Shown piece by piece: positions 4,220 to 60,050 of a DNA stretch of 64,000 nucleotides. The position numbers and the translations under genes are program-made. The notes under the pieces were generated by a model. It was given only the letters and a program-made list of their open reading frames with translations. It did no database searches and was not told the origin of the DNA. This DNA comes from Streptomyces hundungensis (GTDB lineage: Bacteria; Actinomycetota; Actinomycetes; Streptomycetales; Streptomycetaceae). The stretch lies in contig NZ_CP032698.1 of assembly GCF_003627815.1 (NCBI RefSeq), positions 5,952,001 through 6,016,000 on the forward strand, written 5' to 3'. Position 1 is the stretch's first letter, and each line of letters begins with the position of its first letter.

Positions 4220-4550
4220 AACGCCATTCAGGCCTACGGACCGCAGGCGCCTGCTCGCGCAGTTCCCCGCGCCCCTGGAAACCCGTTTTCGTCTGCGGAC
4301 CGTGGGTGGCTGGTCGCGCAGTTCCCCGCGCCCCTAGCTACTCGGTGCTGGCCCGCGTCGGCCACCTCAGCCTGTCCGGCGATTGAGGACGAGCGCCCTT
4401 CAGGCGCGAACGGGGTCTGGGGCGGAGCCCCAGGAAGGCCCGCACCATCCAACTCTGCGCCTACGGGCGGGTGGGTGGGCGAGGTGCCCCAGGGGGCCGG
4501 AACCAGCCGACCCCCGTCACGGGCGGGTGGGTGGGGAAGCGGGACGGGGG
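4220..4550. repeat. Composite intergenic repeat (A-A-B-C)
   Basis: Fills most of the 556-bp gap between the hydrolase and response regulator genes. Two copies of repeat A (GCGCAGTTCCCCGCGCCCCT, near 4255 and 4315) are followed by repeat B (GGCGATTGAGGACGAGCGCC type, about 4375-4440, ending in GGGGCGGAGCCCC) and a G-rich GGGTGGGTGGG segment C. The same order recurs at 59530-60050 and, inverted, at 47225-47645. No gene is seen here. Confidence 0.75.
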
Positions 4551-12488: not shown

Positions 12489-12870
12489 GGGGCGCGAGGA
12501 ACCGCGCGAGCAACCACGCACGACCCGCGGACGAGAGCGGGTTGAGGGGCGCGAGGAACTGCGCGACCAGCCACGCACGGCCCGCGGACGAAAACGGGTT
12601 GAGGGGCGCGGGGAACTGCGCGCCCAGCCACGCACGGCCCGCGGACGAAAACGGGTTGAGGGGCGCGGGGAACTGCGCGAGCAACCACGCACGACCCGCG
12701 GACGAGAGCGGGTTGAGGGGCGCGGGGAACTGCGCGAGCAACCACGCACGACCCGCGGACGAAAACGGGTTTCCAGCGGCGCACACCCACGGCCCGCAGA
12801 CGAGAGCGGGTTCAGGGGCGCGGGGAACTGCGCAACCAGCCACAGCCGCCCCGCACAGAACCCACCACCC
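12489..12870. repeat. 57-bp tandem repeat array
   Basis: Five units begin at 12489, 12546, 12603, 12660 and 12717, a period of exactly 57 bp, followed by degenerate partial units near 12774 and 12815. Each unit starts GGGGCGCGGGGAACTGCGCG (or the GAGGAAC variant) and ends with an ACGAAAACGGGTT-type segment. There are no unique spacers. The array fills the gap between the DUF4190 gene and the 3' end of aceE. Single copies of the unit occur at 4.2, 47.3 and 59.5 kb. Confidence 0.92.
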
Positions 12871-21752: not shown

Positions 21753-22916
21753 ATGCGGCATTTCGGGCACGTCCCGCCGGCTGTGCGGAAGAGCCTCTTC
21801 CATCAGGAGCCCTGTGAGTTCACCGCGGGCTCGTCCGCACGCGTGCTGTCGGCCGCCCTCGGTGCCACGCTCTACAGCCCCGCGACCCGGCCCACGCTCG
21901 CCGGCGACGTCCTGAAACAGGCCCGCCGCGGCGTCACGTCCATGGTGCTGTGCCTGGAGGACTCGATCGACGACGCCGAGGTGGTGGCCGCCGAAGCCAA
22001 CCTGGTGCGCCAGTTCGCCGACCTCGACGCCCGCGGCGAAGAGGTCCCGCTGCTGTTCGTGCGGGTCCGCGACCCCCTCCAGATCCCGGACCTGGTGCGG
22101 CGCCTCGGCACCTCCGCCCGCCTCCTGTGCGGCTTCGTCCTGCCGAAGTTCACCGAGGAGCGCGGCATGGGCTTCCTGGAGGCGCTCACCGCCGCCGAGT
22201 CCGCGAGCGGACGCCGGCTGTTCGCCATGCCCGTCCTGGAGTCCCCCGAACTGCTCCACCTGGAGACCCGGGCCGAGACCTTGGCCGGAATCGCGCGCAC
22301 GGTGGAGAAGTACCGCGAGCGGATCCTCGCCCTCCGCCTCGGCGTCACCGACTTCTGCTCCGCCTACGGACTGCGCCGCTCGCCCGACATGACGGCGTAC
22401 GACGTGAAGATCGTGGCCGGGGTGATAGCGGACGTGGTGAACGTGCTGGGCCGCGCCGACGGCAGCGGCTTCACCATCACGGGCCCCGTGTGGGAGTACT
22501 TCCGGCTCCAGGAGCGGATGTTCAAGCCCCAACTGCGCCGCAGCCCCTTCCTGGAGGGCCGCGCCGAGGAGCTGCGCACCGCGCTGATCGAGCACGACCT
22601 GGACGGGCTGCTGCGCGAGATCGAGCTCGACCGGGCCAACGGGCTGCTCGGCAAGACCTGTATCCACCCCACGCACGTGATGCCCGTCCACGCCCTGTCG
22701 GTGGTCAGCCACGAGGAGTTCAGCGACGCGGCGGACATCCTGCGGCCCGAGCGCGGCGGCGGCGGGGTGCTGCGCTCGGCGTACACCAACAAGATGAACG
22801 AGGTGAAGCCACACCGCGCCTGGGCCGAGCGCACCCTGCTGCGGGCAGAGGTGTTCGGCGTCGCCGCCGAGGACGTCGGCTTCGTGGACCTGCTGACGGC
22901 GGGCCTCGCCGAATGA
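21753..22916 (+). CDS. HpcH/HpaI aldolase/citrate lyase-like protein of the Ter pathway
   Basis: TIM-barrel enzyme of 387 residues. The barrel motifs include SMVLCLEDSIDDAEV near 63-77, FVLPKF and MPVLESPELLHLETR. C-C lyase/aldolase family members use Glu and Asp to hold Mg. As I recall, in Ter-associated gene sets this type is predicted to build part of a nucleoside-like metabolite. The stop overlaps the next start (ATGA, 22913-22916), starting a three-gene coupled operon with the phosphoribosyltransferase and HAD genes. Confidence 0.85.
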   Translation: MRHFGHVPPAVRKSLFHQEPCEFTAGSSARVLSAALGATLYSPATRPTLAGDVLKQARRGVTSMVLCLEDSIDDAEVVAAEANLVRQFADLDARGEEVPLLFVRVRDPLQIPDLVRRLGTSARLLCGFVLPKFTEERGMGFLEALTAAESASGRRLFAMPVLESPELLHLETRAETLAGIARTVEKYRERILALRLGVTDFCSAYGLRRSPDMTAYDVKIVAGVIADVVNVLGRADGSGFTITGPVWEYFRLQERMFKPQLRRSPFLEGRAEELRTALIEHDLDGLLREIELDRANGLLGKTCIHPTHVMPVHALSVVSHEEFSDAADILRPERGGGGVLRSAYTNKMNEVKPHRAWAERTLLRAEVFGVAAEDVGFVDLLTAGLAE

Positions 22917-25405
22917 CCGAACGAACAGAGGGACACAGCACCGTGGTCGAGTGGTCGGGAACGTGGGTCGCCGAGCGGCTCGGAGTCGAGCTCGTCGGGG
23001 ACGAGCGGCTGAGCTCCCTGCTCGGCCTCGCCCTGCGCCGCAACCCCAAGCGCGCCCATCTGCTCGTCTCCCATGTCCTGGGCAAGCACGTACCGCAGCG
23101 GCCGTCCGTGGTGTGGGGCGCCGGGTACGAACTGGGCCTGCGCGTAAGGGAGTTGCTGGGAAGGGAGGCGGCCGGACGGGCCGTGGTGCTCGGCTACGCC
23201 GAGACCGCGACGGGCCTCGGGCACTCGGTCGCCGACGGCCTGTCCCTCGCTCCCTGTCTCCACTCCACCCGCCGCCCCGTCGCGGGCGTCGCGACGGCGG
23301 GCGGTTTCGAGGAGTCCCACTCCCACGCCACCTCCCATCTGCTGCTCCCCGAGGACCCCCGACTCCTCGCAGGGCAGGGCCCGTTGGTGCTGGTCGACGA
23401 CGAGTTCTCCACCGGCAACACGGTCCTCAACACCATCCGTGACCTGCACGCGCGCCATCCGCGCGACCACTACGTCATCGTCGCGCTCGTCGACATGCGC
23501 TCCCCGCGGGACCGCGACCGCCTCACCGCCTTCGCGGCGGAGATCGGCGCCCGCATCGACCTCATCGCCTCCGCGTCGGGCACGGTCCGGCTCCCGGAGG
23601 GCGTCCTCGACAAGGGCCGGGCGCTGGTCGAGGAGTACGAGACGGCGAACCCCGGACATCTGCTTTGTAAGAGCAGCGCTCCTTCCCCGAGCCCCGCGCG
23701 CCGCGTCGACCTGGACTGGCCCCAGGGCCTGCCCGACGGCGCCCGTCACGGATTCACCCCCGCGCACCGGGCCACCCTGGAGGCCGCTCTGCCCGGCATG
23801 GCCGCGCGCCTGGCCGGGGCCCTCGATCTCCCCCGCGCCACCGGAACGCCGCGCGTCCTCGTGCTCGGCTTCGAGGAGCTGATGTACGCGCCGCTGCGCC
23901 TCGCCCTCGCTCTCGAAGAGCGCGGCGGCGCCGAGGTGCGCTACTCCACCACCACCCGCTCGCCCGTCCTCGCGGTCGACGACCCCGGCTACGCCATCCG
24001 CACCCGCCTCGCCTTCCCCGCGCACGACGACCCGGCCGACGGGCCAGGCGAGCGGTACGCCTACAACGTCGCGGGCGGCGGCTTCGACGCCGTCGTGGTG
24101 GTCGTGGACTCGGCCGCCGACACCCCCCAACTGCACGCCCCCGGCGGCCTGTTGGCCCAGCTCGCCGCCCACCTACCGCACGTCGTGCTCGCCGTCGTGC
24201 CCTCGTACGTACCCCAAGGTGCCCCCATGCCCGAGCCGCTGCGCGGCCCCGCCTTCTCCTCCTACGCGCCCGACGAGGTGGGCTGGCTGCTCAAGGACCT
24301 CTCCTCGGTCGCGCTCGAAGCGCCGACCGAGGAGCGCGAGGAGGCCATCCAGAGCGGCGGCGCACACTACGCGGAGTCGCTGCCGGTCGAGTACCAGCCG
24401 AGCCCGCAGTACCAGGAGCTGTTCCGGGCCGCGCTGGACGGCTCGGCCGGACGGATCGCGCGGGCCGTCGGAGTGGTGACCGAGACGATCCTGGCCGAGC
24501 TCCCCCAACGCCGAAAGCGCCTGGGGGACCCCCATCCGCGCCCCGTGCTGGTCTCGCTCGCCCGCGCCGGAACGCCCGTCGGCGTCCTGATGCGCCGCTG
24601 GGCCCAGTACCGCCACGGCCTGGACCTGCCGCACTACGCGGTCTCCATCGTGCGCGGCCGGGGCATCGACCCGAACGCGCTGCGCTGGCTCGCCGCCCAC
24701 CACGACCCCGCCGACGTCGTCTTCGTCGACGGGTGGACCGGCAAGGGCGCCATCACCCGTGAACTGGCCGCCGCCCTGGGCGAGTTCCCCGAGTTCGCGG
24801 ACTTCGACCCGGAGATCGCGGTGCTCGCCGACCCCGGCTCCTGTGTGCGCACCTACGGCACCCGCGAGGACTTCCTGATCCCCTCCGCCTGTCTCAACTC
24901 CACGGTGTCCGGCCTGATATCGCGCACCGTGCTGCGCGGCGACCTCATCGGCCCGGGTGACTTCCACGGCGCGAAGTTCTACCGGGAACTGGCCGGCGCC
25001 GACGTCTCGGGCCACTTCCTCGACTCCGTCGCCGCGCGCTTCGAGGAGGTCGCCCCCGAGGTGGAGCGCGATGCCAAGGCCCTGCGGGACACCGACCGCA
25101 CCCCGAGCTGGGAGGGCTGGGCCGCCGTCGAGCGCATCAGCGAGGAGTACGGCATCCACGACGTCAACCTGGTCAAACCCGGCGTGGGCGAGACCACCCG
25201 GGTGCTGCTGCGCCGGGTCCCCTGGAAGATCCTCGCCGGGCGCGGCGCCGGAGCCGACCTCGACCACATCCGGCTCCTCGCCGAGCAGCGCGGCGTACCG
25301 GTCGAGGAGGTGGACGGCCTGCCGTACAGCTGTGTCGGCCTCATCCACCCCCAGTACACCCGGGGCGCGACCGGCGCCGACGGCACGGCGGTGGTCGCGC
25401 AGTGA
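22913..25405 (+). CDS. Multi-domain phosphoribosyltransferase (PRTase_2-TRSP-PRTase_1-PELOTA)
   Basis: Protein of 830 residues in a single chain. The first phosphoribosyltransferase domain has a PRPP-binding motif LVLVDDEFSTGNT at 158-170. A TRSP-type segment follows (about 275-510). A second PRTase-like domain has PVLVSLARAGTPVG near 541 and VVFVDGWTGKGAI near 602. The C-terminal 90 residues (VNLVKPGVGETTRVLLRRVPW) fit a PELOTA-type RNA-binding fold. Predicted to join a base to PRPP in the Ter nucleoside pathway. Elsewhere these halves are, to my memory, often separate proteins. Residues about 248-256 (GHLLCKSSA) are encoded by an antisense tRNA-Val sequence. GTGA overlap with the HAD gene. 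Confidence 0.88.
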   Translation: MTERTEGHSTVVEWSGTWVAERLGVELVGDERLSSLLGLALRRNPKRAHLLVSHVLGKHVPQRPSVVWGAGYELGLRVRELLGREAAGRAVVLGYAETATGLGHSVADGLSLAPCLHSTRRPVAGVATAGGFEESHSHATSHLLLPEDPRLLAGQGPLVLVDDEFSTGNTVLNTIRDLHARHPRDHYVIVALVDMRSPRDRDRLTAFAAEIGARIDLIASASGTVRLPEGVLDKGRALVEEYETANPGHLLCKSSAPSPSPARRVDLDWPQGLPDGARHGFTPAHRATLEAALPGMAARLAGALDLPRATGTPRVLVLGFEELMYAPLRLALALEERGGAEVRYSTTTRSPVLAVDDPGYAIRTRLAFPAHDDPADGPGERYAYNVAGGGFDAVVVVVDSAADTPQLHAPGGLLAQLAAHLPHVVLAVVPSYVPQGAPMPEPLRGPAFSSYAPDEVGWLLKDLSSVALEAPTEEREEAIQSGGAHYAESLPVEYQPSPQYQELFRAALDGSAGRIARAVGVVTETILAELPQRRKRLGDPHPRPVLVSLARAGTPVGVLMRRWAQYRHGLDLPHYAVSIVRGRGIDPNALRWLAAHHDPADVVFVDGWTGKGAITRELAAALGEFPEFADFDPEIAVLADPGSCVRTYGTREDFLIPSACLNSTVSGLISRTVLRGDLIGPGDFHGAKFYRELAGADVSGHFLDSVAARFEEVAPEVERDAKALRDTDRTPSWEGWAAVERISEEYGIHDVNLVKPGVGETTRVLLRRVPWKILAGRGAGADLDHIRLLAEQRGVPVEEVDGLPYSCVGLIHPQYTRGATGADGTAVVAQ
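23655..23681 (-). other. Antisense tRNA-Val-derived segment within a coding gene
   Basis: These 27 bases are the exact reverse complement of tRNA-Val(TAC) positions 30619-30645 (end of D stem, anticodon arm, variable loop). Similarity continues on both sides with small gaps, into a GGTTCG T-loop-like motif at about 23646-23651 and a GGGGAAG stretch opposite the D-loop GGGGTA. It keeps the host reading frame open and falls between two domains. Likely a scar or insertion from a tRNA-Val-specific mobile element. Confidence 0.8.
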
Positions 25406-30598: not shown

Positions 30599-30670
30599 GG
30601 GTGTGTAGCTCAGGGGTAGAGCGCTGCTCTTACAAAGCAGATGTCGGCGGTTCGAAACCGTCCACGCCCA
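30599..30670 (+). tRNA. tRNA-Val (anticodon TAC)
   Basis: Complete cloverleaf: acceptor GGGTGTG/CACGCCC, D stem GCTC/GAGC, anticodon stem CTGCT/AGCAG with loop CTTACAA (TAC at 34-36), T arm GGCGG-TTCGAAA-CCGTC, discriminator A. CCA is not encoded. A hairpin terminator follows. The 3' part is duplicated in diverged form at 35996-36040, marking it as the attachment site of an integrative element. Confidence 0.97.
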
Positions 30671-30703
30671 CCGACGAGATAGGAGCAGGTGAGAGCCTGC
30701 TTT

Positions 30704-30733
30704 GGCCCTCCAGTCATGATCGACTGGAGGGCC
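30704..30733. terminator. Terminator of tRNA-Val
   Basis: Perfect 12-bp stem GGCCCTCCAGTC/GACTGGAGGGCC with a 6-nt loop followed by TTCTCT. A decayed copy follows the tRNA fragment at 36060-36100. Confidence 0.9.
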
Positions 30734-31190
30734 TTCTCTGTGATCGAAGTCCACAAAGAGTCCACATCCCCCCGCGATCTTGCTAGTCGAGGCCTCCGCC
30801 ATCACTCTTTCGGGGGGCTTGCGTGGCGTCAACAACTGGTTAGAGTGCAGTCCGACCGGGGCCGGCGCGTCTCCCCCACGCGCGCCAGATCTACGCCGGT
30901 CAGATCCTGTGGTGCCGCGACGGGGAGGTCCGGTCCACGGGGAGAGGCCCCCTGCCGCATCAGTCGGCGGGGGGCCTTCTTGCACAGTAAACCGCGTCGC
31001 CCCTCGGGAGGGGCGAGGCGGCGCGCTCTGACTGAATCAGAACGCAGGACGGTCAGTTACGGCGGATCCACGTACGCCGTCGACCGTCCCGCCCGGCCGG
31101 GCGCGCACGAGGCGGCGCCGACGGGCGGACATACATTCGATCATGGCGCCGTAAGCGTGGACACGTGCCACGCTCCGCTCCATCGCCCGA
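30734..31190. other. Left end of the accessory island, no intact gene
   Basis: About 450 bp where an integrase would be expected. No tyrosine or serine recombinase motifs are present on either strand. A strong hairpin (30945-30977; AGGCCCCC...GGGGGCCT) with a T-rich end looks like the terminator of a lost gene. An unframed stretch near 30885-30940 reads like a short gene remnant. Confidence 0.6.
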
Positions 31191-31405
31191 CTGGGTAGTA
31201 CACCCGCCGCCGGGCCATCGGCGACCGGATCCGCGCCGCACGTCTCTACGCGAACCTCACGCAAGAGAAGGTCGCCTTGCGCGCCGGCATAGACCGGGCG
31301 ACGTACAACCGCATCGAGCAGGGCCACAGTTCGCCGGGCCTCGACATCCTCATCCTGATTGCCGACGCCATCGGCGTACCCCTGGCAGACCTAGTGCGGC
31401 AGTAG
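31191..31405 (+). pseudogene. XRE family regulator, frameshifted
   Basis: From 31214 the frame encodes a full helix-turn-helix (AIGDRIRAARLYANLTQEK, IDRATYNRIEQGHSSPGLD, LILIADAIGVPLADLVRQ, then TAG). There is no start codon in this frame: an upstream TAG lies at 31196. In the neighbouring frame CTG GGT AGT ACA CCC reads LGSTP, and restoring one C in the run at 31203-31205 would give the family-like N-terminus MGSTPRRRAIGD. A one-base deletion (and ATG to CTG change) has probably inactivated it. Confidence 0.75.
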
Positions 31406-31408
31406 AAA

Positions 31409-31448
31409 GCCCCGGCCACCACCGCGGGGGAGCGCTGATGGCCGGGGC
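31409..31448. terminator. Terminator after the XRE pseudogene
   Basis: Stem GCCCCGGCCA/TGGCCGGGGC, 10 bp, with a 20-nt loop, directly after the stop codon. Confidence 0.75.
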
Positions 31449-31461
31449 GCTCAGGCGCTAC

Positions 31462-31632
31462 TCAGCTGGCAGGCTGCCCCGATCCCGGACACATTTCCCG
31501 GCTTCCCTCCGCCTGGTGCGATGGCGTGGGCTGGCCCGGCTCTGCGCCGTTGATCGAGCCGCAGACGGGGCAGCCGCCAGCGACCCGGGCCGGATCGAAC
31601 CGCTCTCCTCGGTGACGACAGGTGCATTCCAT
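31462..31632 (-). CDS. Small zinc-ribbon-like protein
   Basis: Predicted 56-residue protein beginning MECTCRHRGERF. CxC at 3-5 and CPVC near 24-27 could form a zinc knuckle (VAGGCPVCGS is a common ribbon turn). A GAAGGG ribosome binding site is 10 nt upstream of the ATG. No family recognised. Last gene of the left cassette. Confidence 0.55.
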   Translation of the reverse strand: MECTCRHRGERFDPARVAGGCPVCGSINGAEPGQPTPSHQAEGSREMCPGSGQPAS

Positions 31633-31703
31633 TTCGACACATCCCTTCGATAGGGGTGGTGCTGGTGATGGTGCACTCCCCGGCCACTGTCGGCCGGGGA
31701 AGA

Positions 31704-32177
31704 TCAGAACTCGCCTTGCAGGGAGAACGCGTTGGTCCCCTTGTCCTGCCCAGGCCGGGCCGTGTGGTGGAACAGGCAGTGGGCCCGGCCCGTCGAGTGG
31801 AAGATCACGCCGAACCCGGGGTTCTGTGCGTCCTCCGCGTAGGCCTCGGCCCGGAGGATCTCGGTGTTCCCCGAGTTCGTCAGAGCGGCGGCGAGGTAGT
31901 GCGCAGCAACCCGCGGGGTCGTCTTGCCGTTCGTGTACAGCTCCGGGTACGGCGACTCTGCGGGGGCCTCGCCAGTGACCGGCGTCTCGGGCTGGTCGCT
32001 CTTTTCGCCGGGGGGCGCCACGGCAGTGAGGCCTGCCCAGATGCGGGCCCCGGACGTGAGGGTGATCTGCCAGCCGTACAGGTGGTCTTCGCCGCGGTCC
32101 CAGCGGTCCACGGTCTGGACGTCGGGTGCTTTGGCCAGTGCCTCGGTGGCGAACGCGTGGAACCTCTCGATGCGCAT
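31704..32177 (-). CDS. Hypothetical protein
   Basis: 157 residues, beginning MRIERFHAFATEALAKAPDVQTVDRW, no signal peptide or membrane segment. Codon use is typical of the host, and a GAAGGA ribosome binding site sits upstream. The C-terminus (FGVIFHSTGRAHCLFHHTARPG) contains His and Cys residues but no known catalytic pattern. Small hypothetical gene in the island; similar genes are found in Streptomyces accessory regions to my knowledge. Confidence 0.65.
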   Translation of the reverse strand: MRIERFHAFATEALAKAPDVQTVDRWDRGEDHLYGWQITLTSGARIWAGLTAVAPPGEKSDQPETPVTGEAPAESPYPELYTNGKTTPRVAAHYLAAALTNSGNTEILRAEAYAEDAQNPGFGVIFHSTGRAHCLFHHTARPGQDKGTNAFSLQGEF

Positions 32178-32309
32178 TTGTGATCATTCCTTCTCGTCGC
32201 GGCGGATGCGCCAGTCTATGAGCGGCGCCCGTGCTGGCTCCGCCCCCGCCCCGGCCGCGGTCCTGCCAGGGAGTGTCAGCCAGGGCGGGGAGTCAGTGGC
32301 TTTGGGGGT

Positions 32310-32344
32310 CCGGCCCCTGCCGGGTCGGCGGCGGCAGGGGCCGG
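32310..32344. terminator. Terminator of the left cassette module
   Basis: Perfect 12-bp stem CCGGCCCCTGCC/GGCAGGGGCCGG with an 11-nt loop, just past the 3' end of the 32349 gene on the minus strand. Confidence 0.8.
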
Positions 32345-32348
32345 AGTC

Positions 32349-32609
32349 TCAGCTGCGCGGCGAGAGGTAGCTGCGCTGCGATTCCCGGGTGAGGCCCAGC
32401 GCTTTGACGGCCGCGGCCTCCTCAGGTGTGGCGCGACGGAGTTCGCGGGTCTTGATCGTGGCGTCGGGCAGATCGCCGGGCCGAGCAGAAGGAACGAACG
32501 CCACACGCTTCATGTCGTCCCCGGGCGACGTGACGCTGCTGTCCAGATCGCGGGGGATAAGTCCGGTCCGGCCCTCGCAGACGACGACGACGTAGTCCCA
32601 CTGCTTCAT
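32349..32609 (-). CDS. Conserved small module protein (MKQWDYVVVV family), left copy
   Basis: 86 residues, begins MKQWDYVVVVCEGRTGLIPRDLD. Compact alpha/beta sequence without Cys clusters or membrane segments. It is close to the protein at 36333-36614 (shared GDDMKRVAFVPS, ATxKTRELR, EEAAAVKA, GLTRESQ). Start overlaps the stop of the 32606-33094 gene (ATGA), so the two proteins are translated in a fixed ratio. The family is not one I can name. Confidence 0.7.
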   Translation of the reverse strand: MKQWDYVVVVCEGRTGLIPRDLDSSVTSPGDDMKRVAFVPSARPGDLPDATIKTRELRRATPEEAAAVKALGLTRESQRSYLSPRS

Positions 32610-33094
32610 GCCGTGGTCTCCACTCCAAGGATGGCCGTGCCTGTCTCGATCAGGTCGGCAAGTTGCATCGGATCGCACAGCGCACCCGGCGTGGCCATGG
32701 GTACAACCCAGTAAGCCGCGAGCCGCTCGACCGGCTCGGCGTCCCCGACCCGGGGCACCCCGATGTAGTTTCCGAGGCCGAGGTACGTGGCGTACGGGCC
32801 GAGGCTCTGACTCGGCGGAGAAGGCGGCACGAGGGCGTAGAAGCGGTGCCCGCGGACATCGTGGATGACAGGGCCTCGCAGGCGCCGGAGCGCGGCGGTC
32901 GCAGTTACCGGCCCCGCGGTGGCCGCCACGGCATACACGAGATCATCGGCCAGCCGGACGGCGGAGAACCGGCGCCCCAACGCAAGGACCGCAAGGTGGT
33001 ACTCCTCCCACTGCTCACGCGCGCCGGCCGGGCGGTTGAGGCTGTCGGCCAGCCACACCGCAACGGCGGCGTCTCGATCGGCAGTTGTGCGCAT
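32606..33094 (-). CDS. Conserved module protein, about 160 residues, left copy
   Basis: 162 residues. Homologous to 36611-37114: shared WLAxSLNRP, EQW, LALGRRFSAVRL, LVYA, GPVxH, RFYALxPP, YLGxxxYxGVP, YWxVPxxxPGxLCDP. The pattern GRRF-AVRL ... GPV ... YLG...VP ... W-VP recalls small prim-pol-like proteins of Streptomyces, a weak inference. Starts at TGATG overlapping the 72-residue gene and ends in ATGA overlapping its small partner. Function unknown. Confidence 0.7.
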   Translation of the reverse strand: MRTTADRDAAVAVWLADSLNRPAGAREQWEEYHLAVLALGRRFSAVRLADDLVYAVAATAGPVTATAALRRLRGPVIHDVRGHRFYALVPPSPPSQSLGPYATYLGLGNYIGVPRVGDAEPVERLAAYWVVPMATPGALCDPMQLADLIETGTAILGVETTA

Positions 33095-33312
33095 CACTGG
33101 ACCGGCACCGCTCGGCGCAGGGCTCGGGCGCAACGGTCGAGCAGCACGTCGAGGGCAGCGTGTAGCCGCTGCGCTTCACCGTAGGAGAGAACGAGGTCGA
33201 CGTCCTCGTCGAGGCGGTCGACGTTCCAGACGCCGAGCGGCACGCGGACCTCGCCGGTGCTGTCGTCGCATGTGGGTTTCGCGTCGCGCGGTGACGCGTG
33301 CCGACGGGGCAT
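33094..33312 (-). CDS. Small hypothetical protein
   Basis: 72 residues with a GGGAGG ribosome binding site. VRVPLGVWNVDRLDEDVDLVLSYGEAQRLHAALDVLLDRC suggests two strands followed by a helix. The stop codon overlaps the next start (TGATG). Absent from the right cassette. No family recognised. Confidence 0.65.
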   Translation of the reverse strand: MPRRHASPRDAKPTCDDSTGEVRVPLGVWNVDRLDEDVDLVLSYGEAQRLHAALDVLLDRCARALRRAVPVQ

Positions 33313-33378
33313 GGTGCCTCCCGGGTGGTGAGGATCCGTCAGGAGGCGCCACCGTAAGGGAGATGCTGGTAGGTAACT

Positions 33379-33412
33379 GGGACAGATTGTCCCCGTGTCC
33401 CACCCTGTCCCC
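33379..33412. promoter_or_regulatory. Candidate operator with GGGACA half-sites
   Basis: Perfect inverted repeat GGGACA-GAT-TGTCCC (33379-33393) followed by further TGTCCC half-sites up to about 33411, between the regulator gene at 33413 and the three-gene operon it precedes. Likely a binding site of that regulator. Confidence 0.5.
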
Positions 33413-34642
33413 CTAGCTGACCTCGCGAAGCCCCACCTTCTCGGCAAGCTGAGCGGCCTCGGGCCGCAGTGCCCGAGGAGCCTGCCGCCACAGCTCGGCG
33501 ATCACGGTCCGCGCGGACGGCGTGAACTGGACCGTCTCGGCGCCGATTTCGTGGGCCAACTTCATGACGTGCAGGGCGGCCGTGCGGTCGCCGCGCTGGA
33601 GATGCCCGCGGCCGACCTCGACCCACAACCGGGCCCGCCGCTCGATCGACGGCATGGAGTCCGGGTCGATCTCGTCGGCCGCCGCGAGCGCGGCCCGAGC
33701 GGTGCGCAGATCCGTCGCGACACTGACCTGATGGAAGTCGACGTTCGCGCGGCCGAACACCGTAGAGGGGTGGACGTACGCGGTCGGCAACGACTTGGCG
33801 ACCTGGTCACCCGCCTCCCAGTACCGCCACGCGTCGCCAGCGCGAGCGTCCCGCGCCGCCGTGACTGCGGCGTGCAGTTGCAGCGCCCCGTACACGCCAC
33901 GCCAGTCGTCGGGCGCCGTGTCCAGGTGCGGCCGGATGAGGTCCGCGGCCTCCAAGACCACACGGAGCGCCTCCTCCGGATACTCGGTCTCCCGCAAGAT
34001 GTTGCCCATGTTCCAGGCCGCGGCTGCGATGGCCGCCGGGTTGTCGGCGTCCTGCGCGGCAGACATCGCCCGGTCCGCAACGACCCACGCCATCTCGGCC
34101 GGCGCCACGTAGGCCGTCGCCTGCCCAGTGAGACGGTAGACGTCGGACAGAGCGACGAGCGCAGCCCGCCGGTCCTCTCCTGTCGTCAGGCGTACGGCCG
34201 CCTCAGCGTCCCGGATCATGCGCGGAAGCACCTTGGACACCTCGGTGCGGTTCTCGCCGGTCGAATGCCACTGAATCCACGTACGGTCCACGCGCCTTTG
34301 CAGATCGGCGACGTTCACCGGCCCGCCCGCCGGGGGAGGGCTGAGCCGCCGTGTCATCACCGCGTCCCACACCGCAGGCATCCCCGGGTGCTCAAGGCGC
34401 CCCGTCGGGACGGTCATCGGCGTAGCCGCTCCCGTCAGGATCGATGCGTCCGACAACTGGAGCGCGGCCGCCATCTTCAGCGTCAACGAAGTGTTGTGCA
34501 GTTCGCGCTCGCCGCTTTCGATCTTCTTCAGCCAGTCAGGTCCGCGGCCGCACATGCTCGCGAGCATCTCGCGGGTCTTGCCTCGTGATTCACGGAGGAG
34601 TCGGATGCGCTCACCAGCGCTGAGGTCTGCGGGGATGTCCAT
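33413..34642 (-). CDS. XRE regulator with TPR-like C-terminal domain
   Basis: 409 residues. The N-terminal Cro/CI helix-turn-helix (about 8-65) reads AGERIRLLRESRGKTREMLASMCGRG followed by WLKKIESGERELHN. From about 110 the chain is all helical, with alternating A-rich pairs characteristic of tetratricopeptide-like repeats (AMAWVVADRAMSAAQDADNP, AAAWNMGNILRETEYPEEAL). Such regulators sense peptides or small ligands. It lies at the head of the left cassette on the same strand. Confidence 0.82.
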   Translation of the reverse strand: MDIPADLSAGERIRLLRESRGKTREMLASMCGRGPDWLKKIESGERELHNTSLTLKMAAALQLSDASILTGAATPMTVPTGRLEHPGMPAVWDAVMTRRLSPPPAGGPVNVADLQRRVDRTWIQWHSTGENRTEVSKVLPRMIRDAEAAVRLTTGEDRRAALVALSDVYRLTGQATAYVAPAEMAWVVADRAMSAAQDADNPAAIAAAAWNMGNILRETEYPEEALRVVLEAADLIRPHLDTAPDDWRGVYGALQLHAAVTAARDARAGDAWRYWEAGDQVAKSLPTAYVHPSTVFGRANVDFHQVSVATDLRTARAALAAADEIDPDSMPSIERRARLWVEVGRGHLQRGDRTAALHVMKLAHEIGAETVQFTPSARTVIAELWRQAPRALRPEAAQLAEKVGLREVS

Positions 34643-34723
34643 GGTGCCCCTTCTAATGCAGTGCCGTGACAATGCGATACGCCCACCGTACGGCGGGACA
34701 CGCTGGCCGGGAATGACGAAGAC

Positions 34724-34756
34724 GCCCCCTGCCGGCCCGGAGGCCAGACAGGGGGC
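34724..34756. terminator. Terminator after the 59-residue gene
   Basis: Stem GCCCCCTG/CAGGGGGC, 8 bp, with a 17-nt loop, about 20 bp past the gene end on the minus strand. Confidence 0.65.
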
Positions 34757-34774
34757 GCACTCGCGCGTGGGTAG

Positions 34775-34954
34775 CTACAGGGCGGACTGAAACGTCGAGG
34801 CGCTCGGCACGTTGTCGGCGGCCGTGGTGATGCGGTCGAGGGCGCCCGGGATGCGGCCGGTGTGCTGAGCTGCGGCCCGGTCGGCGAGCGGGATCCGGCG
34901 GGCCTGCGGGGTGGCGGCGGGGCGCGCGGCGGCCGAGACGAGCGTAGTGGTCAT
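34775..34954 (-). CDS. Small hypothetical protein, 59 residues
   Basis: MTTTLVSAAARPAATPQARR..., Ala-rich, basic in the middle (RIPLADRAAA), no Cys, no membrane segment. GAAGGGGA ribosome binding site upstream and a terminator downstream support a real gene. No family recognised. Confidence 0.55.
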   Translation of the reverse strand: MTTTLVSAAARPAATPQARRIPLADRAAAQHTGRIPGALDRITTAADNVPSASTFQSAL

Positions 34955-34994
34955 GGGCTGATTGTCCCCTTCTCGGGCTGGTTCGGATGCGAAC

Positions 34995-35138
34995 TCACGC
35001 CTCTGAGGCAGGAGTTCCGTAGCCCTCGTGGTGGTGGTCGGTGAAGCAGCCGGGGCAGAGCGGGCAGTGGCAGATCCGGCAGCGCAGCTGTGCCTGCTCC
35101 CGAGTGCAGCGGGAGCAGGCGTCCGGCCTCTCGGTCAT
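34995..35138 (-). CDS. Small Cys-rich zinc-finger protein, 47 residues
   Basis: MTERPDACSRCTREQAQLRC... contains CSRC, CRIC, CPLC and a final C before HHH, six or seven Cys plus His, sufficient for two zinc sites. Start overlaps the stop of the truncated upstream gene (ATGA), showing it was part of an older operon. No specific family recognised. Confidence 0.65.
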   Translation of the reverse strand: MTERPDACSRCTREQAQLRCRICHCPLCPGCFTDHHHEGYGTPASEA

Positions 35139-35278
35139 CGGTTCACCGCGTCCCAGATGGCGCGACCGACGGTGCTCGGCTTCGCGTCGCCGCTGGTGGT
35201 CCGGGTGGCGCCGAACGTCTTGCCGTTCCGCTCGGACCAGTACGAGACGTAGGCCCGGGGAATCCAGGACGTGGCCGT
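35135..35278 (-). pseudogene. 5'-truncated gene remnant
   Basis: The frame reads TSWIPRAYVSYWSERNGKT, then FGATRTTSGDAKPSTVGRA and IWDAVNR, ending in TGA that overlaps the next ATG. No start codon exists in the frame and a stop occurs just upstream (35279-35281). The well-formed C-terminus and the coupled stop indicate the end of a formerly longer protein. Confidence 0.6.
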
Positions 35279-35351
35279 TCAATCCGGTGATCGGTTCCGT
35301 GAGATCCCGCGCGAGGGTGGTCCGGCGACCCCCTCGGGGTGGGCCCGAGCC

Positions 35352-35544
35352 CTAGGGCCTGTCCGGCGGATCTTGTCTGGGACGCGGGGGGCTGCCACGC
35401 CCATCTGCGGCGTTGTCGTCGGTTGCCGACGCTCCGCGTCGCCGCCCTCCTCCGCCTTGCAGCTGGACGCACCAGCCCCCCGCTCACCAGCACCACAAGG
35501 CCAAGGCACCCCGACGGCGACCAGATCCGCCGGACAGGCCCTAG
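35352..35544. mobile_element. MITE-like 193-bp element with 22-bp inverted ends
   Basis: Perfect 22-bp terminal inverted repeats (35352-35373 and 35523-35544) begin CTAGGGCCTGTCC and end with the complement, so both outer ends read CTAG. The inside is also partly palindromic (GCGGGGGGCT near 35384 against AGCCCCCCGC near 35488). It encodes no protein. One end of the same sequence is present at 50410-50443. Confidence 0.85.
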
Positions 35545-35688
35545 TGCTGGATGATGCGGCTCGCTGTCCAGCCGTCCTAGGTGCCCCTCGCCCGTGCGCC
35601 GGTGCCTCTCATGCGCGCCTACCCGACGACGGTCTTCCCTGGGACGATGCGTGTTCCGTCCACAGCGATCCGTACGCAGGAGGGGCAC

Positions 35689-35865
35689 GTGACGCAGTCG
35701 AAGTGTGGAGCGCCGACGCAGAGCGGGCAGCGGTGCCAGAACAAGGCAGTCATTGGGACCTCGCGGTGCTCCAAGCACCAGGGGCCGTTGTCTGCTTACG
35801 GGGTCCAGCAGCGGAAGAAGAAGGAAGCCGAGGCGAAGCTGAAGAAGCTTCGCAAGAAGCGGTGA
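35689..35865 (+). CDS. Small DUF5763-like zinc-binding protein
   Basis: 58 residues from GTG with an excellent AGGAGGGG ribosome binding site. Pattern KCGAPTQSGQRCQNKAVIG then SRCSKHQG (Cys, Cys, Cys, His) fits a DUF5763-like zinc site; the C-terminus is a Lys-rich helix (QQRKKKEAEAKLKKLRKKR), likely to bind nucleic acid. Only gene of the island on the plus strand that is intact. Confidence 0.7.
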   Translation: MTQSKCGAPTQSGQRCQNKAVIGTSRCSKHQGPLSAYGVQQRKKKEAEAKLKKLRKKR

Positions 35866-35995
35866 GCCGGGGCGCCGACCCGCTCGGCTGACGTCCACGG
35901 GTGACATCAACGAAGGCGGACCGGAGCGGTCTCGGCGGTTCGCCGCAGGGTCACAGTCGAGGCGGGCGCGCGGCTGGAGCGGGGTACGGGGAGAA

Positions 35996-36125
35996 CTTAC
36001 AAAGCAGATGTTGGCGGTTCGAAACCGTTCATCCCACCGGTGGTATGCAGCAGGTGCGAGCCTGTTGGCGCCGCCCTCCAGTCGATCATGACTAGCGGTC
36101 TTTTCCGTGATCGGAGTCCACCAGC
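35996..36125 (+). other. Diverged attachment-site copy of tRNA-Val 3' region
   Basis: 35996-36040 matches the tRNA-Val 3' portion from the anticodon loop (CTTACAAAGCAGATG, then GGCGGTTCGAAACCG) with a few differences. Similarity continues into the region of the tRNA terminator and beyond (GTGATCGGAGTCCAC against GTGATCGAAGTCCAC). It lacks the 5' half and cannot fold as a tRNA. It marks the far end of an integrated element or of a tandem insertion. Confidence 0.85.
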
Positions 36126-38089: not shown

Positions 38090-38826
38090 ACGGGGGAACG
38101 TACCTGCCTCTGAAACTCCTCGGTACGGGTCGCGCAGTGCCATGCGCTGTCCCGCGCCTGGCAGGCGGCCAGGACTTCGGCGGGATCTTCGCTGACGATC
38201 ACACCGAGGGTGTTGTCCTCGTCGTCGAAGACGAAGCGGACCAGAACGCGGGAGTCGAAGAGCCAGAAGTCCCAGTCGGGCAGTCCGAGCCGACCGGCTT
38301 CTGCCCGGGTCATGTTGCGGATGTCCTCGCCGGCCGCGACGTTTCCGAGCCCGGAGGCCAGGAGGTACGCCTGCCCCTCGGTGGCCGGCTCGTCGACGAG
38401 CCGGACGCGCTCGAAGCGTTTGCCCTGCTCCGTCTGCTTGCGCACATTGCTGCGCCAGGCGTCGAACGGCTCGTCGGCGATGCCTTCGCCAGCCTGCCAG
38501 CGCTGCCACTTCCGGCTCTTGCGGTCGGAGGCGTAGCCGCGTCGTGTCTCCAGGCGCCAGGCTGTGTGCTTGAAGTCAGCGAACATGTGGGCCACTTCGG
38601 CGAACGGGATCAAGGCATTCGTCATGGCTCGGGGAGCGAACCGGGTCAGCAGGTCCCGTGGCACAGTGACGAAGGTTTCGGACTCCTTCACGTCGCGCAG
38701 TTGGGCCAGGTGCTCGGGGTCGGTAACTCGCTCGCCTTGGACGAGGATCTCTCCGGTCCCCTCGACTTCGTACAGCGTGGGGCAGTCGCCGTCGTCGCTG
38801 GTGGTGCCGATGAACCTGAGCGTCAT
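38086..38826 (-). CDS. DUF6879-type protein with fused N-terminal small domain
   Basis: 246 residues. Residues 1-70 (MTLRFIGTTSDDGDCPTLYEVEG...) look like a separate small protein family; from about 70 (MTNALIPFAEVAHMFADF) the sequence is DUF6879-like with WDFWLFDSRVLVRFVFDDED. The inner Met lies in GCCATGACG, where loss of one C would create an ATGA overlap of two genes, the arrangement I recall from other species. Start at 38826 follows GGAGGG. Partner of the XRE regulator. Confidence 0.7.
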   Translation of the reverse strand: MTLRFIGTTSDDGDCPTLYEVEGTGEILVQGERVTDPEHLAQLRDVKESETFVTVPRDLLTRFAPRAMTNALIPFAEVAHMFADFKHTAWRLETRRGYASDRKSRKWQRWQAGEGIADEPFDAWRSNVRKQTEQGKRFERVRLVDEPATEGQAYLLASGLGNVAAGEDIRNMTRAEAGRLGLPDWDFWLFDSRVLVRFVFDDEDNTLGVIVSEDPAEVLAACQARDSAWHCATRTEEFQRQVRSPV

Positions 38827-38888
38827 CTCGCCCTCCATCCGCGCTTGTTGGAGGTCCAGCATGCGGGAGCTGGGAGGCGAGCGCTCGA

Positions 38889-38940
38889 TGATTGCGGCAG
38901 ATTGCGAAGCGGCTGACGGGGCTGCCGCTTGCGAGCAATC
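38889..38940. promoter_or_regulatory. TTGCG half-sites upstream of the regulator operon
   Basis: ATTGCGGCAGATTGCG (38890-38905) and CTTGCGAGCAAT (38929-38940) lie 60-115 bp upstream of the DUF6879 gene. They resemble the palindrome at 37201, suggesting one regulator acts at both. Confidence 0.45.
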
Positions 38941-47224: not shown

Positions 47225-47645
47225 GACACCCCGTCGCCCCGGCCCGCCGAAACGCCTTGGGGCTCCGCCCCAAACCCCGGTCGCGCCTGAACGGCGCTCG
47301 TCCTCAATCGCCGGACGGGCTGTAGGTGCCCCCGCACCGAGTGGTTAAGGGGCGCGGGGAACTGCGCGCCCAGCCACGCACGGCGTGCGGACGAAAACGG
47401 GTTTTCAGGGGCGCGGGGAACTGCGCGGGAAGCGACCGCGGCCCGCACCCGAAACGCCTTGGGGCTCCGCCCCAAACCCCGTTTCGCGCCTTAAGGGCGC
47501 TCGTCCTCAATCGCCGGACGGGCTGTAGGTGCCCCCCGGCACCGAGTAGTTAAGGGGCGCGGGGAACTGCGCGACCAGCCACGCACGGCGTGCAGACGAA
47601 AACGGGTTTTGGGGCGCGGGGAACTGCGCGGGAAGCGGCCGCGGG
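47225..47645. repeat. Composite intergenic repeat, inverted orientation
   Basis: Two B segments (GGGGCTCCGCCCC ... CCTCAATCGCC, about 47240-47322 and 47455-47527) alternate with A segments (GGGGCGCGGGGAACTGCGCG at 47349, 47408, 47555 and 47611). Read on the minus strand each A precedes a B, the same order as at 4.2 and 59.5 kb. The block lies before the FetB gene. Confidence 0.8.
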
Positions 47646-59529: not shown

Positions 59530-60050
59530 CACCCGGGCCTGCTGTTGCGCAGTTCCCCGCGCCCCTAAACCCTCCCGAACCTGCGGGCCGTGGTCGCTTC
59601 TCGCGCAGTTCCTCGCGCCCCCAAGAAACCCGTTTTCGTCTGCGGGCCGTACGTGGCTGGTCGCGCAGTTCCCCGCGCCCCTGGCAGGACTGGTGCCGGC
59701 CCGGACGGGACTTGGGCGCGCAGTTCCTCGCGCCCCTAGCTACTCGGTGCTGGCCAGCACCTCAGCCTGTCATGGGGGTCCCCCCTGGCCCTTAAGGCCT
59801 TGGGGGAGATTGAGGACGAGCGCCGTTCAGGCGCGAACGGGGGTGCAGGGGGCGGAGCCCCCGCGGGGGTCTGGGGCGCAGCCCCAGGGCTCAGCCCGTT
59901 CAACGCGCCGCACGGGCGGGTGGGTGGGAAAACGCGTCGGGGTCTGGGGCGGAGCCCCAGGGGGCCCGGGCCAGCCAACCCCCGTCACGGGTGGGTGGTG
60001 GGCAAAAGGGGCCCGGGGTCCGGGGCGAATCCCCGGGGTTGGGGGTGGGT
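59530..60050. repeat. Composite intergenic repeat (A x4, B, C)
   Basis: Four A copies (GCGCAGTTCCCCGCGCCCCT and variants near 59536, 59598, 59664 and 59720) are followed by B (GATTGAGGACGAGCGCCGTT and GGGGCGGAGCCCC near 59808-59880) and by G-rich C segments. Fills the gap between thiolase and transglycosylase genes. Same order as at 4.2 kb. Confidence 0.85.

Follow-up and report, generated by a model that had tools for sequence, protein, structure and literature searches.

The window, by which we mean the whole 64,000-nucleotide stretch of the Streptomyces hundungensis genome that was analysed, contains a Ter-type gene for a PRTase_2-TRSP-StiP-PELOTA protein at 22913..25405 of the forward strand (the ATG start at 22913 is our own reading). 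A match to this protein was present in all 101 of the 101 Streptomyces genomes searched, among the matches listed. With residues numbered from 22916, the gene encodes PRTase_2 (residues 35-222), TRSP (residues 274-414), StiP (residues 448-705), and PELOTA_1 (residues 732-811) domains, and a hypervariable linker at 23582..23734 of the forward strand (residues 223-273) joins PRTase_2 to TRSP. Within this linker lies a segment of 27 bases, at 23655..23681 of the forward strand, that is identical at 27 of 27 positions to the reverse complement of 30619-30645, which are positions 21-47 of a tRNA-Val(TAC) gene. The tRNA gene itself occupies 30599..30672 on the same strand, ~7 kb from the segment, and is its likely source; the shared part comprises the 3' part of the D stem, the anticodon arm, and the start of the variable region. 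As the initial annotation of this DNA had proposed, the segment falls between two domains of a gene that stays open: it is outside both PRTase_2 and TRSP, overlaps no conserved protein domain, and is read through in frame. Ten codons are touched by the 27 bases (residues 247-256, GHLLCKSSAP); the residues named earlier, GHLLCKSSA, are correct as the first nine, and the final P was unlisted.

The match to tRNA-Val and its likely source

Across the genome (8,393,044 bases in one contig), the 27-base pattern has two sites with at most 3 mismatches, the tRNA-Val gene and the linker segment, and a reversed-pattern control had 0 sites in this genome and 0 across 392 Streptomyces genomes. The similarity continues on both sides of the exact match: over the wider stretch at 23646..23701 (forward strand), compared ungapped in the register of the tRNA, 7 of 9 upstream bases, 27 of 27 core bases, and 11 of 20 downstream bases agree. 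Allowing gaps, the linker reaches a local score of 68 against antisense tRNA-Val, and the maximum among 2000 codon shuffles of the same linker was 29. When the 67 tRNA genes of the genome were compared on both strands, Val(TAC) in antisense was the top match for the linkers of the window, S. violascens, and S. xanthochromogenes. Given the 27/27 match, its uniqueness in the genome, the shuffle and tRNA scores, and the absence of control sites in 392 genomes, chance similarity can be practically dismissed. The earlier claims of an exact antisense match, of similarity reaching beyond it, of a negligible role for chance, and of an origin from tRNA-Val are thus all upheld.

The likely source is also a close neighbour. 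Among 68 tRNA matches in the genome, tRNA-Val(TAC) alone lies less than 50 kb from the segment (the second nearest is ~56 kb away), and the distance between segment and tRNA-Val is ~6.7-8.3 kb in all six members of the clade described below. This proximity bears on the idea that a tRNA-Val fragment was captured by way of RNA, either in the form of cDNA or through the joining of broken ends. Transfer RNAs are abundant, and the traceable piece ends inside the tRNA, both of which count in favor of such a route, but a randomly drawn tRNA source would be the nearest of the 68 genes only about once in 68 cases, and we consider capture via RNA quite unlikely.

A role for the antisense segment, in which the mRNA pairs with tRNA-Val or the RNA-binding domain of the protein makes use of the segment, appears very improbable. 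It would be in keeping with 27 perfectly complementary bases, with the PELOTA RNA-binding domain in the same protein, and with the mildly greater stability of the predicted RNA fold of the S. violascens stretch relative to its shuffles (z -2.00; 9/200), but the match drops to 13-24 of 27 in relatives, and for the window stretch the fold is no more stable than in shuffles (z -0.04). The segment is probably neutral and without function.

Comparable copies are rare in the genus. More than one tRNA-Val-like site with at most 2 mismatches occurs in 5 of 392 genomes, including that of the window (from a table read by eye), and these extra copies give no mechanism. At two loci (L148, 8001-8027; L150, 1394-1420), a decaying tRNA-Val-like stretch at which ARAGORN called no tRNA follows the same gene, in the same sense, after ~20-25 bases. 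At two others (L149, 8001-8027; L151, 3300-3326), copies of the tRNA-Val anticodon arm lie in sense orientation ~17-25 bases past the stop codons of unrelated open reading frames, and part of the copy at L151 is doubled. Plasmid and phage records gave weak partial matches only (11 and 13 records, respectively, at E up to 1), none of which covers 80% of the query, and 6 of the 13 phage hits are tRNA genes by annotation. Exact matches on five IMG/VR contigs were set aside: four of the contigs have a tRNA-Val by ARAGORN, the fifth matches tRNA positions 12-74 at the edge of its stretch, and none carries the gene segment.

The linker in other Streptomyces

The comparison of orthologues drew on 111 genes: 29 loci from Streptomyces genomes, 80 loci from named Streptomyces genomes (the best 80 of that scan), the window, and one locus (L183) whose gene is identical to that of S. 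sp. NBC_00083. The linker set comprises 110 sequences (106 distinct), with one orthologue dropped as its linker borders were not recognised; that gene carries unrelated sequence where PRTase_2 gives way to the linker. In the 29 orthologues, which are ~75-83% identical, ungapped comparison of the linker with the 27-base segment gives at best 11-15 matching positions. Five close relatives, with 88-92% identity in the best segment, are found among the best 80 loci: S. sp. ASQP_92 (L063), S. xanthochromogenes (L064), S. sp. WM6378 (L065), S. sp. NBC_00083 (L066), and S. violascens (L067). A search of 392 Streptomyces genomes with 181 bases around the linker added a single full-length match at 80%, in a genome (G328) whose gene is again identical to that of NBC_00083; the remaining full-length matches listed are at or below 73%.

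Resemblance to the tRNA is graded within this clade. Against 27 of 27 in the window, the core matches at 24 bases in S. violascens, 21 in S. xanthochromogenes, 19 in NBC_00083, 18 in ASQP_92, and 13 in WM6378, and over the next 20 bases the tRNA matches number 11 in the window and 15, 10, 10, 8, and 8 in the same order of relatives. Upstream of the core, S. violascens agrees at 4 of 9 bases in the tRNA register. Of the tRNA matches in the 47 bases of core and downstream sequence, 35 are common to the window and S. violascens, 4 occur in S. violascens only, and 3 in the window only. Local scores against antisense tRNA-Val are 68 for the window, 55 for S. violascens, and 25 for S. xanthochromogenes, the last being equalled by a fraction of 0.0005 of its own shuffles. 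The NBC_00083 linker is borderline (shuffle fraction 0.08), tRNA-likeness is not significant in ASQP_92 and WM6378 (0.78 and 0.19), and in these three linkers other tRNAs are the top matches, with scores of 20-24. None of the 103 sampled linkers from outside the clade (100 distinct) resembles antisense tRNA-Val: their best score is 20, their 2060 codon shuffles reach 24, and their best score against any tRNA is 33. The initial annotation had named, as the observation that would speak against it, orthologues in element-free genomes sharing the segment as ordinary ancestral coding sequence. The result is divided: the homologous stretch is indeed ordinary coding sequence in S. violascens (24/27) and in ASQP_92 (18/27, not significant alone), in neither of which a comparable element was seen, but the S. 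violascens stretch is itself tRNA-like rather than ancestral code of unrelated origin.

Constraint on the linker is weak. Between the window and its five relatives, differences in the linker fall on the three codon positions in the ratio 31/39/40 (125 codons), so that the third-position excess seen in the rest of the gene (181/140/776 in 3868 codons) is missing. The window linker is not longer than those of the relatives, and an insertion as such is not shown by length.

The linker also keeps short foreign sequence in frame, as a dispersed repeat makes plain. The repeat GGGGCGCGGGGAACTGCGCGA or its complement occurs with at most 3 mismatches in 17 of 110 linkers, all 17 distinct, compared with 0 of 110 when the rest of the gene is scanned and with a single hit among 2200 codon-shuffled linkers. 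All 15 forward copies are in one reading phase and may thus reflect few independent events. In the window the repeat has 16 copies with at most 2 mismatches, against 0 expected, and these form clusters at 4255-4334, 12489-12835, 47349-47631, and 59545-59736, with copies mostly 55-60 bases apart. It is conceivable, and we advance it as speculation only, that short foldable DNA is captured again and again in the PRTase_2-TRSP linker of Streptomyces. On this view the repeat and the copy of the tRNA anticodon arm would have a common origin, in which folded single strands are copied into gaps during replication or repair and the protein is continually supplied with new coding sequence. If the linker does capture DNA generally, it would preserve a natural archive of short bacterial insertions made from a template. 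This reading is weakened because the repeat, though able to form a short stem, has a predicted fold no more stable than that of shuffled sequences (z -1.07 and -0.44).

Elements at tRNA-Val and the attachment-site question

A third tRNA-Val-derived sequence lies at 35996..36038 of the forward strand, and the earlier count of three such sequences within 13 kb holds. It is a displaced 3' fragment (tRNA positions 31-74, with 3 mismatches and one gap) and represents the far end of an element that begins after 30672; it supports the proposal that tRNA-Val serves as the attachment site of a nearby element, and it is not the source of the linker segment, which includes the 5' side of the anticodon stem together with a portion of the D stem, both missing from the fragment. 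Five reading frames were tested in 30673-35995, of which one has helix-turn-helix domains and four have no Pfam match, and none of the eight matches to tyrosine integrase (PF00589) in the genome falls in the 64-kb window.

Occupancy of the tRNA-Val site varies within the clade. In ASQP_92, DNA homologous to the window from 39745 onward starts ~350 bases past the tRNA, and the element and the DNA up to 39745 are therefore absent there; relative to that genome, the insert in the window reaches ~39745. At tRNA-Val in S. violascens there is a gap of ~2 kb with two short pieces resembling 32732-32848 and 38642-38940 of the window, no second copy of three words from the tRNA 3' end was found at the locus, and no comparable element was seen. 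In S. xanthochromogenes, a remnant resembling 35583-36028 of the window adjoins the tRNA. Elements thus seem to arrive and leave at tRNA-Val independently of the linker segment.

The initial annotation had suggested that the segment is a scar of off-target integration or excision by the tRNA-Val element, or else a secondary attachment site. The use of tRNA-Val for attachment, the displaced 3' fragment, and the similar remnant in S. xanthochromogenes speak for such an account, but the segment corresponds to an inner part of the tRNA in reversed orientation and contains 5' sequence missing from the displaced fragment, the window is without a PF00589 match, and S. violascens retains 24 of 27 bases while showing no comparable element. 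Nor does the segment have all the properties by which tRNA gene (tDNA) fragments of tRNA-targeting genomic islands are recognised in Islander, to judge from the portion of PMC4383910 that sets out its filters. It agrees with the domain filter, lying between PRTase_2 and TRSP, and, at ~7 kb, with the interval filter of 2 to 200 kb. It is excluded by the integrase filter (which asks for an integrase gene inside, or overlapping, the stretch from tRNA to fragment), by the end filter (the fragment must reach one end of the tRNA gene, and the segment covers positions 21-47 of 74), and by the orientation filter (the fragment must run in the direction of the tRNA gene, and the segment is its reverse complement). 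By published criteria the segment is not an attachment-site fragment, and we think it improbable that a scar or secondary site accounts for it.

Age and origin of the segment

A gene tree of the six clade members and six outgroups, built from 752 codons with the linker left out, separates the two sets at 100% support. Within the clade, the window pairs with ASQP_92 and S. violascens pairs with WM6378, both at 100%, and the grouping of the four clade members other than the first pair has 62% support. Because the window and S. violascens are both tRNA-like across a fully supported split, the capture most likely predates that split. Quartet-informative sites mostly follow the tree: 114 agree with it, 14 unite the window with S. 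violascens, and 9 favor the third grouping. Five of the 14 discordant sites are at residues 249-257, and another five at residues 529-530, at the border of an indel with an alignment-dependent position. Given the five discordant sites at residues 249-257, and since ASQP_92 and WM6378 have a common alternative linker state contrary to the tree, short-tract exchange between lineages may have carried the segment.

Another feature of the same gene has a distribution partly at odds with the tree. An in-frame insert of ~10 residues, bounded by inverted repeats and located in the StiP domain (24500-24533 of the window), is present in the window, NBC_00083, and S. violascens and absent from ASQP_92, S. 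xanthochromogenes, and WM6378, with variants seen by eye at two further loci (L068 and L070). It was considered as a dispersed repeat and rejected, having a single copy in the genome under strict patterns.

We favor, with moderate confidence, the view that an ancestral inverted copy of tRNA-Val entered a tolerant linker and then decayed as functionless coding sequence. Some 45-60 bases of tRNA-Val(TAC), the nearby tRNA gene, would have been copied in inverted orientation into the linker in a common ancestor that the window shared with the group of S. violascens and S. xanthochromogenes, in what may have been a single capture for all members. The likeliest route would be a DNA-level copying error, such as a template switch to the opposite strand during replication or break repair, because an inverted copy of a near neighbour is the expected product of such a switch. 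A linker that accepts nearly any in-frame sequence would have retained the copy as functionless code, and point changes would then have eroded it, leaving 27 of 27 bases intact in the window and 13-24 of 27 in the five relatives.

Under plain decay the intact core in the window is somewhat lucky. Its branch shows 11-15% change per site, at which 27 unchanged sites are ~1-5% likely by an arithmetic estimate, and this objection is softened by the fact that the case was picked for its perfect match. The main rival explanation, which we hold to be unlikely, addresses this point directly: a partly tRNA-like linker of the clade would have been made identical to the tRNA later, in the window lineage, through gene conversion or a template switch involving the tRNA gene 7 kb away. 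The contrast between 27 of 27 bases in the window and 18 of 27 in its sister ASQP_92, in a fast-changing linker, is what such an event would leave, and PMC8604942 describes how the arms of inverted repeats in yeast coding DNA become homogenised. S. violascens nevertheless matches at 24 of 27 and 15 of 20 bases, far above codon shuffles, and a tRNA-derived precursor is needed regardless.

The segment is a part of a tRNA gene turned protein-coding in a bacterium, placeable on a gene tree and with resemblance graded among relatives, and it cautions against reading every tRNA fragment near a tRNA gene as an attachment site. In the literature covered (titles and abstract openings, with few subscription journals), no tRNA segment within a bacterial protein gene was described. 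Set beside known systems, as portrayed in parts of the cited papers, the segment resembles the Islander fragments (PMC4383910) in being a partial tRNA copy on the same replicon, kilobases from the intact gene, and differs in being internal, inverted, and in coding sequence, within a window that has no tyrosine integrase. In yeast, template switching between inverted repeats gives multinucleotide mutations in coding DNA (PMC8604942); as there, inverted copies are found on one molecule and several codons of a protein gene are changed, but here 7 kb separates the arms, a tRNA gene forms one of them, and the organism is a bacterium. The palindromic elements of Rickettsia, which occur in protein genes (described in PMC6649704), are likewise short foldable in-frame DNA that is tolerated by the protein and fades in identity with time. 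They are dispersed repeats, whereas the tRNA segment is a single copy (one non-tRNA copy at up to 3 mismatches), and the GGGGCGCGGGGAACTGCGCGA repeat found in 17 of 110 linkers stands nearer to them than the tRNA segment does.
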